A stretch of 26,144 bases of DNA from a virus: the IMG/VR virus record IMGVR_UViG_3300042453_000531, positions 1 through 26,144 of that record; one strand, written 5' to 3'. Every line of letters begins with the position of its first letter. The first letter of the stretch is position 1. Shown here one piece after another: positions 3,982-12,525 of the stretch. Both the position numbers and the translations under genes were made by a program. The notes under the pieces are model-generated. The model did no database searches. It had not been told where the DNA came from and saw nothing but the letters and a program-made list of their open reading frames with translations.

Positions 3982-4487
3982 TGCTATCTTTGATCTCTAC
4001 CCTTGGCGGCTTGCTAATATCTGGCTTACCGAAAGTCTTAGACTTTTTTCAAAACAAGTCTGACCAATCCCACGAGTTAGCCCTCGCCAGACTGCAAAAC
4101 GAAATGCAGTTGCAGATGGCGGCTCAAGGTTTTGCGGCCCAGGCCAAGATCGAAGAGATTCGGACAGACCAGATCGCCATGCAGTCGGAAGCCCAGATGC
4201 AAAACGCCGCGCTCGACCACGACAAAAAGATCATGGATAAGGCAAGCAAGTGGGCGGTCAACTATGTGGCTACCGTCCGTCCTACCGTGACCTACATCTT
4301 CGTGTTGGAACTGGTCCTTATCAACATGGGCCTGGTCTACTTCCTGCTGTTTAAGCAAGGACTTGGAACCCTGACCGTGGACCAGTTTATCGCCGCTACT
4401 GACCTGATCTTTTCCGAGGACGAAATGGCAATGCTTGGCGGAATCGTGGGATACTGGTTCGGGTCAAGAGGATGGAGCAAAAAGTGA
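3981..4487 (+). CDS. Putative 3-TM holin (GTA-type)
   Basis: 168 residues. Hydrophobic segments lie at about 1-20 (MLSLISTLGGLLISGLPKVL), 102-125 (TVTYIFVLELVLINMGLVYF) and 149-163 (MLGGIVGYWFGSR), separated by a charged helical stretch (30-95) and a short loop. The R-P-x-x-T-Y before the second segment and the W-F-G-x-R near the end match the 'holin of 3 TMs' family described for gene transfer agents and found in many phages. It would act in the inner membrane to release or activate the endolysin encoded just downstream. The start overlaps the preceding stop by one base; the end overlaps the homing endonuclease start. Confidence 0.65.
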   Translation: MLSLISTLGGLLISGLPKVLDFFQNKSDQSHELALARLQNEMQLQMAAQGFAAQAKIEEIRTDQIAMQSEAQMQNAALDHDKKIMDKASKWAVNYVATVRPTVTYIFVLELVLINMGLVYFLLFKQGLGTLTVDQFIAATDLIFSEDEMAMLGGIVGYWFGSRGWSKK

Positions 4488-4966
4488 CCATTGGACTATA
4501 CGCGGTTGTCAACAAAATCAACCGTAAAGCATATGTTGGAAGTTCTGATAATGTAGAACGCAGACTTCGCCATCATAAATGTTTTATCAAAAATCATAAC
4601 TTTCGTTATTACCAAGGTTATGCCGATGACGCAAAAAAATATGGTGTTGACGGTTTTGAGTTTAGGTTGCTCAAACAAACAGACACCATCGAGGAAGCCA
4701 AGGAATTAGAAACGGCATTTCTTGAGTGCTTTATTGACGATCTTTATAACAAAGCTCCAAATGCCAACGGGGCGACCGGCGTTAAACGTGATCGCGAACT
4801 CTATGTCAAAGGCGCTGCAAAACGATTGCAAAACCCTGACTACACCAAGAATTTGAGCGAAGCCTGCAAAGGCAAACGTGCGCTAATTACCTGCCCCCAT
4901 TGCGGGGTAACTGGTGGCGGTGGAAATATGCGCCGTTACCACATGGATAAGTGCAAAAAGAAGTGA
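4472..4966 (+). CDS. GIY-YIG homing endonuclease with C-terminal zinc finger
   Basis: 164 residues. The N-terminal GIY-YIG domain shows GLY at 8-10, YVGSS at 21-25 and Arg30/31, plus a downstream Glu region (EAKELETAF). A C-terminal CPHC...HxxxC motif (C141, C144, H157, C161) resembles zinc fingers of phage homing endonucleases. Such enzymes cut cognate DNA and spread by homing; here it is free-standing between the holin and endolysin genes. Base composition is AT-richer (roughly 4500-4740) than neighbours, a sign of recent arrival. An in-frame GTG at 4484, overlapping the upstream stop as GTGA and preceded by GGAG, may be the true start and would remove only four residues. Confidence 0.85.
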   Translation: MEQKVTIGLYAVVNKINRKAYVGSSDNVERRLRHHKCFIKNHNFRYYQGYADDAKKYGVDGFEFRLLKQTDTIEEAKELETAFLECFIDDLYNKAPNANGATGVKRDRELYVKGAAKRLQNPDYTKNLSEACKGKRALITCPHCGVTGGGGNMRRYHMDKCKKK

Positions 4967-5469: not shown

Positions 5470-5661
5470 CTCTAAAATCCGGTCTTTTAATTCGTAGGTC
5501 AGTTCAGGCCCATGCTTGAGCTCAAACTCATCTAGCCATTTCCTTCTCTGGGCTTTGGTTCTCATCTTCAGCACATGACGGGCCAGCCCCTCTATCTTTG
5601 CCTCGTGCTGGCTCATCACCACTTTTAGGATTTCTTCCCTGTTGGCCGAGAACTCAGCCAT
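5416..5661 (-). CDS. Unknown small helical phage protein
   Basis: 81 residues from ATG at 5661 (MAEFSANREEILK). The frame stays open upstream to an ATG at 5760 (114 residues), but that part overlaps the conserved end of the AP2 domain of the upstream gene in another frame, so I prefer the shorter start, which overlaps the upstream stop by eight bases. The protein is charged and helical (KIEGLARHVLKMRTKAQRRK; ELTYELKDRILELAKEERH) with no motif I can name. It is the last gene of the minus-strand block, and its 3' end lies antisense to the last 54 bases of the endolysin gene. Confidence 0.6.
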   Translation of the reverse strand: MAEFSANREEILKVVMSQHEAKIEGLARHVLKMRTKAQRRKWLDEFELKHGPELTYELKDRILELAKEERHLSLAPPDQSR

Positions 5662-6166
5662 GGCGGGCGTATTCGCCGTGTAAAAGCTCTCTTGCTGCTC
5701 GGACCGCTCTTGCCGCAGCTTTCTTAGAAGTAAACCTGCCGAGATAAGTTCTTTTGCCATTCGCGCAGACGTGTGCCTCGTAAACCCCTTTTTTTCGCTC
5801 GTAGACGCCTTTTATGTTGGTCTTGGTATGGGGGTAGCGGCGAGCGTTCCAGAGGTTCTGAGAGCAAATTACGGCCCTTAGATTGGATATTCGATTATCG
5901 GCTTTCTTGCCGTTCTTGTGATCTATCATCTCAGGGAAAACCCCATGATGGTAGAGCCATACAAGTCGGTGGGCAAAGTAATACTTTTTGTAGATGGCAA
6001 TTCGGATGTAGCCCTTGCCGGTAGGGGAACCCGCTGGTTTGCCTGCGTACCGCTTATTCCACATCTTGTAAGCGTTGACCCGCTTAAAGTCCTCCGGCGG
6101 TCTGTTGCGCCAAAACAACACCCCGCGCTTGTAGATAAACAGCCGCCTTACAAAGTCCTTATCCAC
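5654..6166 (-). CDS. HNH-AP2 homing endonuclease
   Basis: 170 residues from a GTG start. A central HNH_3-type nuclease domain spans about residues 45-110: AHRLVW (65-70), IDHKNG (81-86), Asn91 and SNLR (94-97). An AP2 DNA-binding domain follows (about 117-165: KGVYERKKGVYEAHV, YLGRFTSKKAAA, ELLHGEYA). This HNH-AP2 architecture is the standard free-standing phage homing endonuclease. It lies between the MazG-like gene (8-base overlap with its stop) and the last minus-strand gene, whose longest possible frame overlaps the AP2 end by 107 bases. Its arrival probably altered the start region of that neighbour. Confidence 0.88.
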   Translation of the reverse strand: MDKDFVRRLFIYKRGVLFWRNRPPEDFKRVNAYKMWNKRYAGKPAGSPTGKGYIRIAIYKKYYFAHRLVWLYHHGVFPEMIDHKNGKKADNRISNLRAVICSQNLWNARRYPHTKTNIKGVYERKKGVYEAHVCANGKRTYLGRFTSKKAAARAVRAARELLHGEYARHG

Positions 6167-10688: not shown

Positions 10689-11413
10689 TTGATGTCATCC
10701 TCTGCCATTTGGCAAAAAATACCACACTCAATTGCTTGCTCTGCTGGGTAGTCACCAGCGTCTTTTGGAAGGTCTGTAAGCCAGATTCGTTCGCCATTGT
10801 GTTTTAAGATTTTGGCGTTAATCTTTTTTTCCATTTCTGCCATTCGGTTGAATTGGTCTGGAAAATCAACTTTGATCTTGTTCCAGTAACCAAGGCCACC
10901 TTTTACGCACCCAATACAGTTATTGTTTTGGTAGCCAAGTTTATACATTACAGGCAGTTCAATGCCAGCCCTTTGTAGAATCGCTAAACAGTCTTGTTTT
11001 GTAAGACCTTTGTCTATCAGGATAGACCATAGGTTTACATCGTTATTGGCATCTATAAAGCGATCAACTCTGTCTTGCTCTTCAACGGTGTATCCAAAAA
11101 CTTGTATGTCGCCAGGCCGCTCAAACTCCTTACGCATTTCTTTTTTGAGCAACCGTGTGCATGGAGCACCAGCTACACCAACTATATAACGAGTCTTTTC
11201 AAAAACCTCGTAAATGCTGCCCTTGTATTTCTCATTACGAATAACCTTAATTTCTTGACCAAACCATTTTTCGCAGTCGTTTTTGAACCTAAGATTATCT
11301 GGGTGCTCCTCTTGGACATGGCAATACACAATTTCTAGCGGCGTTTCTTGCAAAGCTAGTTTTGTGGCTACAGCAGATGCAGCTCCACAAGAAAACCAAG
11401 CAATCGTTCTCAT
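10685..11413 (-). CDS. PAPS-reductase-like ATP pyrophosphatase-fold protein
   Basis: 242 residues. The PP-loop is SCGAASAVA (8-16), a variant of SGGxxS; Cys85 sits in APCTRLLKKEMRKEF, and C166-x2-C169 in NNNCIGCVKGG, a cysteine set able to hold an iron-sulfur cluster. These features place it in the phosphoadenosine phosphosulfate reductase/ATP-PPase superfamily, which includes sulfate reductases, thiolation enzymes and DndC of DNA phosphorothioation. Phage members are common but of unknown role; with no other sulfate assimilation genes here, nucleic-acid or nucleotide modification is more plausible than sulfate reduction. ATGA overlaps both downstream ninB and the upstream replication-like gene. 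Confidence 0.78.
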   Translation of the reverse strand: MRTIAWFSCGAASAVATKLALQETPLEIVYCHVQEEHPDNLRFKNDCEKWFGQEIKVIRNEKYKGSIYEVFEKTRYIVGVAGAPCTRLLKKEMRKEFERPGDIQVFGYTVEEQDRVDRFIDANNDVNLWSILIDKGLTKQDCLAILQRAGIELPVMYKLGYQNNNCIGCVKGGLGYWNKIKVDFPDQFNRMAEMEKKINAKILKHNGERIWLTDLPKDAGDYPAEQAIECGIFCQMAEDDIK

Positions 11414-11790
11414 GCAGCCTTCATTGCCTGGCGCATGACTGCAACCTTAAACGCAGGAAAGGAGTCAAACTGAGATGGGTCTAGACCGAGTTCTTTTCCT
11501 TTGGCTTCGATTCCGCTTGCGGTTTCGTGCCAAGGTTTCTCGTTTACGACATCGGGCAAGACGATGGTGAGCTCATCTTCCCAACGCTCGCCGCGCAACC
11601 AAGTGGCCGGATAGGGAATAAACGCACCAGCGTTACGCATCCATTGTTCTGTTTTGCAATGCGCTTTTATGGCACTTATCAGCATCGTTAATTCTGGGCG
11701 CACATTTTTAGTTTGTTGCCATGCTTTCCTAGCGTCTGCCTTTGCTACCTTTTTCGGGTAATTCTCCCAAAACTCGTCAAAGCCGTCCAA
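11410..11790 (-). CDS. Replication initiation / DnaT-like protein
   Basis: 126 residues from a TTG start. The near-perfect AGGAGGT at about 11796-11802 (read on the minus strand) decides this start. FDEFWENYPKKVAKADARKA (4-23) and FIPYPATWLRGERWEDE (57-73) are the conserved blocks of the C-terminal domain of phage replication proteins (O-like, DnaT-like, replisome organiser), which help load the replicative helicase. There is no N-terminal origin-binding winged helix, so it is a reduced version. It is the first gene after the 390-base folded non-coding stretch. Confidence 0.7.
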   Translation of the reverse strand: MDGFDEFWENYPKKVAKADARKAWQQTKNVRPELTMLISAIKAHCKTEQWMRNAGAFIPYPATWLRGERWEDELTIVLPDVVNEKPWHETASGIEAKGKELGLDPSQFDSFPAFKVAVMRQAMKAA

Positions 11791-11799
11791 GTTTTACCT

Positions 11800-12181
11800 C
11801 CTAAAAGACAAAACAACGACCACTAGCAAAATTTACATTTTGCCAGACCTGTAAGGAGATGTATCCCGTAACAACGGTACTCTAGGTGGCCTTACCCACG
11901 ACTAGACGGATATAGCAGGTGTCGACCCTGGTCTCCGTGGCTACTTATTCCACGGCCTCTATCCCATCCCCGCCTTCTTCAACACGCTAGCGTTTTGCGC
12001 GGTCAGCGGAAATAAAAAAGCCCACATGAGTCTAGAGCGTGGCTCTTGGCATGAGCAGCATTGAAATCAATGGGACAGGTAGGAATCCAATCAACCTCAA
12101 CACCACACACGCCCCAGACTGATGCGGGCTTGTGCTCCTACCTGACTATTGTTTCCAACGGCTGCCACACCGCTGACAACG
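11800..12181 (-). ncRNA. Candidate structured leader RNA or origin region (gene-free)
   Basis: The only stretch over 300 bases without a gene. It is full of inverted repeats: 11829-11844 (GCAAAAT...ATTTTGC), 11861-11880 (GTA-CCG...CGG-TAC), 11881-11906 (TCTAG-GTGG...CCAC-CTAGA), 11917-11930, 11936-11956 (CCGTGG...CCACGG), the palindrome ACGCTAGCGT near 11983-11993, 12034-12046 (AGAGC...GCTCT), 12059-12072 (CATTG...CAATG) and a 9-base perfect pair 12076-12084/12136-12144. No short open frame with a good ribosome site was noticed. It may be transcribed on the minus strand as leader of the replication operon; a replication origin is the main alternative. Strand and boundaries are uncertain. Confidence 0.45.
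12012..12144 (-). promoter_or_regulatory. Possible attenuator with alternative pairings and U-tract
   Basis: On the minus strand, the segment 12131-12122 (AAGCCCGCAT) can pair with 12027-12018 (ATGTGGGCTT), ten pairs with one G-U, directly followed by TTTTTTATTT, a terminator form. The same segment, extended as 12134-12126 (CACAAGCCC), can pair instead with 12114-12106 (GGGCGTGTG), eight of nine, nested inside the 9-base perfect stem 12144-12136/12084-12076. The two states exclude each other, as in riboswitches and attenuators. The imperfect pair in the terminator stem is a tolerated G-U only on the minus strand. It is all from base pairing by eye. Confidence 0.4.
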
Positions 12182-12490
12182 CTAGTTTAACTCAACAATC
12201 TTGACTTGCCAACCATCTTTTAGCTTCCCCCAGCCGTGGACCTGCACCCGCCAGCCTGATCGGACCATCTCTGGGTAATACTCGTTCTCGACTATCTTCT
12301 TCTGCCGCGCTGCAACATTGCTACGGCTGGTGGTCTGGACTGCCAGGGTCTCCCCATGCCCTATTGCCAACAGGTCGATACACCCGAATAAGTCCTGCCG
12401 GATGCGGGCAAAGTGGTTCCAATGCTCCACAATCCAGACGGAATAACCCTGCTCGCGTAGTAGTTTTAGGGATCGCTGGGTAGGACTCAT
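12182..12490 (-). CDS. PD-(D/E)XK-like nuclease family protein
   Basis: 102 residues from ATG at 12490; a TTG at 12505 would add five residues but overlaps the -10 box. MSPTQRSLKLLREQGYSVWI, then IRQDLFGCIDLLAIG (Asp39) and LAVQTTSRSN (Gln52 region), match a phage family related to PD-(D/E)XK and VRR-type nucleases, with Asp kept but the usual E-x-K replaced by Q-T-T as often seen in this group. Possible jobs are Holliday-junction or branched-DNA cutting. No ribosome site precedes the ATG and the promoter places the transcript start almost at it, so the mRNA is probably leaderless. Confidence 0.65.
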   Translation of the reverse strand: MSPTQRSLKLLREQGYSVWIVEHWNHFARIRQDLFGCIDLLAIGHGETLAVQTTSRSNVAARQKKIVENEYYPEMVRSGWRVQVHGWGKLKDGWQVKIVELN

Positions 12491-12496
12491 GTTGGT

Positions 12497-12525
12497 TTTA
12501 TACAACAGTTATAAAGTGCTTGCAA
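12497..12525 (-). promoter_or_regulatory. Minus-strand early promoter
   Basis: On the minus strand, TTGCAA at 12525-12520 (-35, four of six matches), a 17-base spacer and TATAAA at 12502-12497 (-10, five of six) form a good sigma-70 promoter. Transcription would start around 12490, at the ATG of the nuclease gene, and run into the replication and recombination operon. The -35 hexamer is itself a palindrome and abuts an inverted repeat. Confidence 0.6.

Follow-up and report, generated by a model that had tools for sequence, protein, structure and literature searches.

Small phage RNAs such as c4 of P1 (Rfam family RF01695) and CI of P4 act by premature termination to regulate operons for replication or for an antirepressor. 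The locus described here, part of a 26,144-base virus record that we analysed over its whole length (the window), differs from both in fold and gene order and has no Rfam match. The wiring that we propose for it would be shared with IsrK of prophage Gifsy-1, where one promoter gives a short terminated RNA and a long read-through RNA that pair with each other (PMC4825925). However, the downstream genes differ, no sequence relation is expected, and, unlike IsrK, the short form here is a pseudoknotted three-way junction of ~164 nt. The put element of HK022 (PMC9378689), which binds RNA polymerase, is ~70 nt long, has two stem-loops and lies before the terminators that it overrides. It is likewise a phage early-operon RNA element near a promoter, but its size and topology differ, and in our locus the terminator precedes the second RNA, module B. 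GOLLD and ROOL are large pseudoknotted phage RNAs of >600 nt, often near tRNA islands and of unknown function (PMC12286853), whereas the two RNAs here are ~164 and 190 nt, match nothing in Rfam and come from a window in which no tRNA was found. STAXI (PMC2864571) is a short pseudoknot that occurs in two or three copies next to genes whose products handle DNA; our locus also has pseudoknots adjoining such genes, but its folds are single, larger and unrelated. Finally, Rfam family RF02932 occupies the slot of module B in sister phages and resembles it in size and in being rich in pseudoknots, but its sequence and helices differ, and the stretch 11700-12300 gives no match to its model (threshold 49.4 bits) on either strand at E values up to 10.

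The gap and its homologues

The window has the gene content of a phage, with genes for an SU10-type major capsid protein, portal, terminase, scaffold and endolysin as well as a RecE-like exonuclease, a Sak-like annealing protein, NinB, a short single-strand-binding protein and DNA methyltransferases. Among those of its proteins that were scanned, we found neither a helicase nor a DNA polymerase. Two probable homing-type endonuclease genes lie at 4472-4966 (GIY-YIG-like; phrog_314 and others) and 5654-6166 (HNH; phrog_99). An initial annotation had described a gene-free stretch rich in inverted repeats between a nuclease-like gene and a TTG-started replication gene, and this description holds. 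The gap measures exactly 391 nt (11791-12181) between the minus-strand genes 12505-12182 and 11790-11410, it contains no open reading frame of at least 40 aa on either strand, and most of its repeats are helices of two separate RNAs. The small upstream gene (12182..12505, minus strand), which owes the name nuclease-like to that annotation, has no Pfam or PHROG match. We rejected it as a constant partner of the locus, since other phages carry in its place a phosphoesterase-like gene, a gene labelled RusA-like on our own reading of its sequence, or another gene. The downstream gene (11410..11790, minus strand) has a Shine-Dalgarno sequence, AGGAGGU, at 11796..11802 and a TTG start, and encodes a 126-aa replication protein (phrog_270, profile positions 178-253 of 383) that matches only the C-terminal part (~75 residues) of phage replication initiation proteins. 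Its AlphaFold prediction, a moderate helical model with a mean pLDDT of 78, settled nothing.

Folded as RNA, the gap gave a z-score of -3.8 on the minus strand and -3.1 on the plus strand, and each strand was more stable than all 100 of its shuffles. To collect homologues, we used both flanking proteins as queries against viral contigs, which gave ~160 loci with 51 unique gap sequences. When the window's gap was compared with these by blastn, its positions 1-183 and 182-391 had different relatives. Comparison of the sequences establishes not one folded RNA but two, module A (~12177-12014) and module B (~12004-11814), both on the minus strand, which is that of the replication gene; A has promoter and terminator signals, the order is A, B and then the operon, and A and B are exchanged among phages. 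The feature begins within the 3' end of the upstream gene, where the promoter lies (12212-12184). The earlier suggestion of a structured phage RNA, which homologues lacking conserved pairing were expected to overturn, is instead strongly supported by the compensatory changes that they contain. Neither module was matched in an Rfam cmscan of 11700-12300 on both strands at E values up to 10; nothing in the window reached gathering level, the sole match at relaxed E was a chance microRNA (E 3.1), and neither RNA is present in Rfam release 15.

Module A, an RNA with a terminator and a variable pseudoknot

Module A is an RNA of ~164 nt (12014..12177, minus strand) that would run from the inferred +1 (GUCAGCGG) to the end of a U-run. 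Its promoter is of the sigma70 type: the -35 box TTGGCA (12207..12212) lies within the 3'-terminal part of the nuclease-like gene, and 17 nt separate it from the -10 box TAAACT (12184..12189), which ends 6 nt before the 5' end of the module. In relatives, the 5' end of module A likewise falls exactly 6 nt past a sigma70-type -10 box, and TTGAAC is found at the -35 position. In 83 unique loci, the mean promoter score is highest at one fixed offset, where it reaches 8.35 of 13 against a background of ~4.4.

Near its 5' end, module A can form the hairpin P1 (12156..12175), read from the sequence as CAGCGG (12175-12170) paired with CCGUUG (12161-12156). The terminator stem S0 (12130-12108 with 12041-12019) holds an arm, S1 (12103-12058), and a small conserved hairpin, S2 (GCUCAUGCCAAGAGC, 12056-12042), in a three-way junction, and the U-run of the intrinsic terminator follows (12014..12019); all of these features are on the minus strand. 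Among copies of the A2 core motif, which were found without using the U-run, 71 of 72 are followed by five or more T residues. The module on its own folds with a z-score of -4.8. In A4-type modules upstream of B (L163, L166, L178, L182 and L199), the first hairpin, GCAGAUUCGACUCCUGC, resembles a tRNA T-arm.

The repeat that the initial annotation had listed as 12076/12136 proves to be a 9-bp pseudoknot helix formed by CAGGTAGGA (12144-12136) and TCCTACCTG (12084-12076). In the minus-strand RNA, its strand x (CAGGUAGGA, 12136..12144) pairs with x' (UCCUACCUG, 12076..12084) in the apical region of the S1 arm. At least seven Watson-Crick pairs link x and x' in 92% of 64 unique A2-type copies, compared with 2.5% when strands from different phages are combined. 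With 51 distinct pair sequences in A2, the helix differs in almost every phage while its self-complementarity is kept. In A1, the window's class, the longest x/x' run averages 7.1 against 5.1 in shuffles, and it reaches 9 in the window itself; the small A1b and A4 classes behave like A1, and pairing in A3 is weak.

Module B and the exchange of modules

Module B is an RNA of ~190 nt on the minus strand (11814..12004). At its 5' end is an H-type pseudoknot, PK1 (11971..12000), in which the pairing of GCGC (12000-11997) with GCGU (11987-11984) is crossed by that of CGCU (11992-11989) with GGCG (11974-11971). The multi-branched body (11856..11970) is closed by GGGAUG (11970-11965) and CAUCUC (11861-11856) and contains helices at 11964-11908, 11955-11935, 11930-11916, 11905-11882 and 11877-11866. 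In a second pseudoknot, PK2 (11851..11895), the hairpin loop GUAAG (11895-11891) pairs with CUUAC (11855-11851), the strand that follows the closing helix, and a tail hairpin (CUGGCAAAAU...AUUUUGCUAG, 11823..11846) forms the 3' end. The model, built on an alignment of 24 window-type sequences, comprises 45 pairs in nine helices, with two pseudoknots. Because the structure was proposed on this same alignment, the 95.7% paired is an inflated figure, and the double changes are the independent part of the evidence. Double changes occur at 24 of the 45 pairs, including four of the five in PK2 (helix 8), and fill 125 cells, in a count where related rows enter repeatedly, against 34.8 in shuffles; none of 500 shuffles reached 125, and shifting the partner by 1-3 columns gave at most 15. 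As a nested fold, module B alone is modestly stable (z -1.95), as expected when pseudoknots are left out. The strand is given by 65 G.U cells against 13 A.C cells, which indicates the minus strand.

The same pairs bear on whether the conserved helices might instead work as folds of single-stranded DNA, a possibility raised at one time for the STAXI motif. Genes for DNA-handling proteins lie nearby, and G.T pairs on the minus strand would be tolerated in DNA too; however, the fixed-offset promoter, the U-run terminator and the many G.U pairs all point to RNA, and we hold this explanation to be highly improbable. We give still less credence to a self-splicing intron or self-cleaving ribozyme, with which the size and the pseudoknots would be compatible: no Rfam intron or ribozyme family matched at E values up to 10, the region interrupts no gene, with the replication protein beginning only beyond it, and the flanking genes differ among phages.

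When the homologues were clustered on the sequence past the terminator, several A types were found with several unrelated B types in many combinations; by this comparison, A and B types recombine freely. Three B classes are large, with 35 members (including the window's B), 34 members (RF02932) and 31 members. A pattern search for the most conserved hairpin of the window's B found 51 contigs. The exact window-type B motif occurred in none of 84,980 bacterial and archaeal genomes, and the B covariance model, run without a positive control, had no match in 399 Burkholderiales genomes. Searching named phages by blastn with the region, with RF02932-type B and with T-loop-type B returned nothing useful and no cultured phage with the cassette. 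Members of the third class, which follow the A terminator (L006, L011, L140) and have no Rfam match, carry two T-loop-like hairpins, one like GGUGCAAAUCC of cobalamin riboswitches and the other (ACGGUUCAAGUCCGU) like a tRNA T-arm. In a 41-kb phage (L276, from position 1282 onward), an A2-type module is followed in slot B by a much larger, structured-looking region seen nowhere else. A 40,443-base contig (G012; loci L127, L145, L305 and L306) carries a replication-gene cassette close to either end: one consists of module A with another B class and the other of window-type B without A. Genome permutation or a join made in assembly may explain this record.

In sister phages, RF02932 (Betaproteobacteria-1) fills slot B, between A and the replication gene, with eight matches in 20 loci at 70-81 bits. 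The window's B shares this position, which alone confers no membership. The initial annotation's statement that the RNA matches no named class is thus correct for the window's own sequence but does not extend to the slot, which holds a named family in sister phages. The family was reportedly described in a 2017 paper; our literature search found no paper on it. Of 399 Burkholderiales genomes, six had an RF02932 match that reached an E value of 0.001, and four had one that reached the cut-off. These chromosomal copies are not beside replication genes, and several have no co-directed gene close behind, suggesting that this slot-B RNA, at least, may act alone. Read by eye, RF02932 (L003:3245-3363; L323-L327) has an apparent pseudoknot absent from the Rfam consensus structure, whose 5' strand precedes GGCGAAG (for example CAAGG, CAGGG or CGUGC) and whose 3' strand follows the 5' half of the second helix (CCUUG, CCCUG or GCACG), with compensatory changes between chromosomal copies. 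Large genes lie near some of the Burkholderiales copies (L327, L328, L324), one of them encoding 882 aa with a Walker-type ATPase motif near the start, and the surroundings may be mobile or defence islands.

The chromosomal copies outside replication contexts would suit a model in which B, perhaps together with A, works in trans as an independent phage RNA (for example, in counter-defence or takeover) whose position only secures early transcription. So would the several unrelated RNA classes that fill one slot, and so would the variety of the first gene after B, which may be the replication protein, a small ORF, or an HNH or other nuclease gene and which implies that B is not adapted to a particular start codon. 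On the other hand, every window-type B for which enough sequence is available precedes a same-strand replication gene, L206 (1.3 kb) being the sole exception, and we saw no terminator where B ends at its 3' side. We consider this model unlikely. Across A-B copies with at least 2.2 kb of downstream sequence, 69 of 76 are followed on the same strand by the replication gene, 0.2-1.6 kb away.

Probable read-through and proposed control of the replication operon

The first 7-9 nt of module A are complementary to the sequence right after the U-run, a pairing that we call the clasp, P0. In the window, its 5' strand is the first 8 nt of the transcript (GUCAGCGG, 12170..12177, minus strand), which overlap P1, and its 3' strand is CCGCUGAC (12002..12009, minus strand), just past the terminator, so that the two can pair only in a read-through RNA. 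Across A types, P0 averages 7.3 pairs against 4.7 in shuffles, and its strands vary in compensatory fashion (GTTGGAAGT/ATTTCCAAC, ATCGGAAGT/ATTTCCGAT and ACTGGAAGT/ATTTCCAGT), such changes occurring also inside the A2 type. At least six pairs form in only 81% of copies, with the other 19% below six, and within A2 the test is not diagnostic (7.3 in cis, 6.8 swapped) because both strands are conserved and swapped strands pair almost as well. P0 as the inverted repeats of a transposon end was rejected on account of the single-base compensatory changes within one A type. Its 3' strand lies beyond the terminator, and selection on this strand would mean either that A and the following sequence are sometimes one RNA or that A acts on that RNA in trans. 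Judged by the compensatory changes in P0, a read-through RNA appears to be in use.

Action in trans would make module A a small RNA like IsrK, controlling copy number or superinfection: the 5' end of the short form (GUCAGCGG) would pair with CCGCUGAC on the long form and switch replication-gene expression on or off. Such a role would fit the module's own promoter and terminator, the target complement on the long form that travels with module A, the x/x' helix that differs in nearly every phage, as specificity elements do, and the use by IsrK of short and read-through isoforms from one promoter (PMC4825925). However, P0 complements are alike within A2, so that specificity in trans would be weak, and the diversity of x/x' is equally expected of an unconstrained structural helix. 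We think this role unlikely.

We prefer to read the locus as a two-isoform, two-part structured leader of the replication operon, made up of a short terminated RNA and a read-through leader, and we would give this reading about an even chance. It fits the promoter, the terminated RNA, the clasp, the second structured RNA and the replication operon, and IsrK of Gifsy-1 (PMC4825925) offers a functioning precedent. Transcription from the locus's own promoter, located where the upstream gene ends, would produce a minus-strand RNA from ~12177, which by default would end at the intrinsic terminator (~12014) as the ~164-nt pseudoknotted module A. Polymerase that reads through, or that arrives from upstream in a terminator-resistant state, would make a longer RNA whose first nucleotides could pair past the terminator (P0), closing A as a sealed domain, and this transcript would run on through module B into the replication gene. 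Module A would then gate expression of the operon, and B would be the folded 5' leader of the read-through RNA. We infer, in this leader model, partial or regulated termination, formation of P0 in cis and a purpose in controlling expression of the replication gene; together, A and B probably control when that gene is switched on. Phages without A exist in which B lies close behind a promoter-like site or an upstream gene (L145, L154, L159), as expected if A is an inserted gate. Against the leader model count the limited P0 pairing, the variety of the first gene after B and the chromosomal RF02932 copies away from replication genes.

An attenuator leader had been among the possibilities raised initially, and it is supported in part: a promoter and then an intrinsic terminator stand before the replication operon, the proposed target of regulation. 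P1 and P0 compete for one 5' strand, but neither touches the S0 stem, and inspection by eye revealed no classical antiterminator that competes for a strand of that stem.

The replication protein itself invites another explanation, in which the locus is a transcription-dependent origin in the style of ColE1 or the T4 R-loop: the structured transcript would prime or open the origin, and the RNA would stand in for the DNA-binding half absent from the 126-aa protein. The match of this protein to only the C-terminal ~75 residues of phage initiators, the lack of a phage helicase or polymerase among the scanned proteins and a GC-skew minimum at 12454 are in keeping with such an origin. However, we rejected the skew as origin evidence, since it tracks the direction of the genes in each of the ten genomes examined, and the chromosomal copies of RF02932 are not at replication genes. 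An origin here strikes us as very unlikely.

Structured phage RNAs that serve as leaders or small RNAs are a kind already known. To our knowledge, and within the partial literature searched, an exchangeable two-module arrangement with a variable self-complementary key has not been described. We suggest only tentatively, and with more doubt than confidence, that freshwater phages share an undescribed modular RNA control cassette, in which an exchangeable pseudoknotted terminator RNA, A, with a hypervariable self-complementary key, would be joined by the P0 clasp to one of several unrelated structured B modules. The two would jointly determine whether the replication gene is expressed; they might define RNA-based groups for superinfection or incompatibility, or form an origin primed by transcription in place of the missing DNA-binding half of the initiator.

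In summary, our study contributes at least two strongly covarying RNA classes that are absent from Rfam. It also gives the Rfam orphan RF02932 a setting: in aquatic phages, this RNA stands ahead of the replication operon and is paired with a terminator RNA. It is unusual for RNA modules to be exchanged so freely, and this makes their function testable by reporter. If control of replication is indeed what these modules provide, an RNA switch would sit at a central decision of phage growth.
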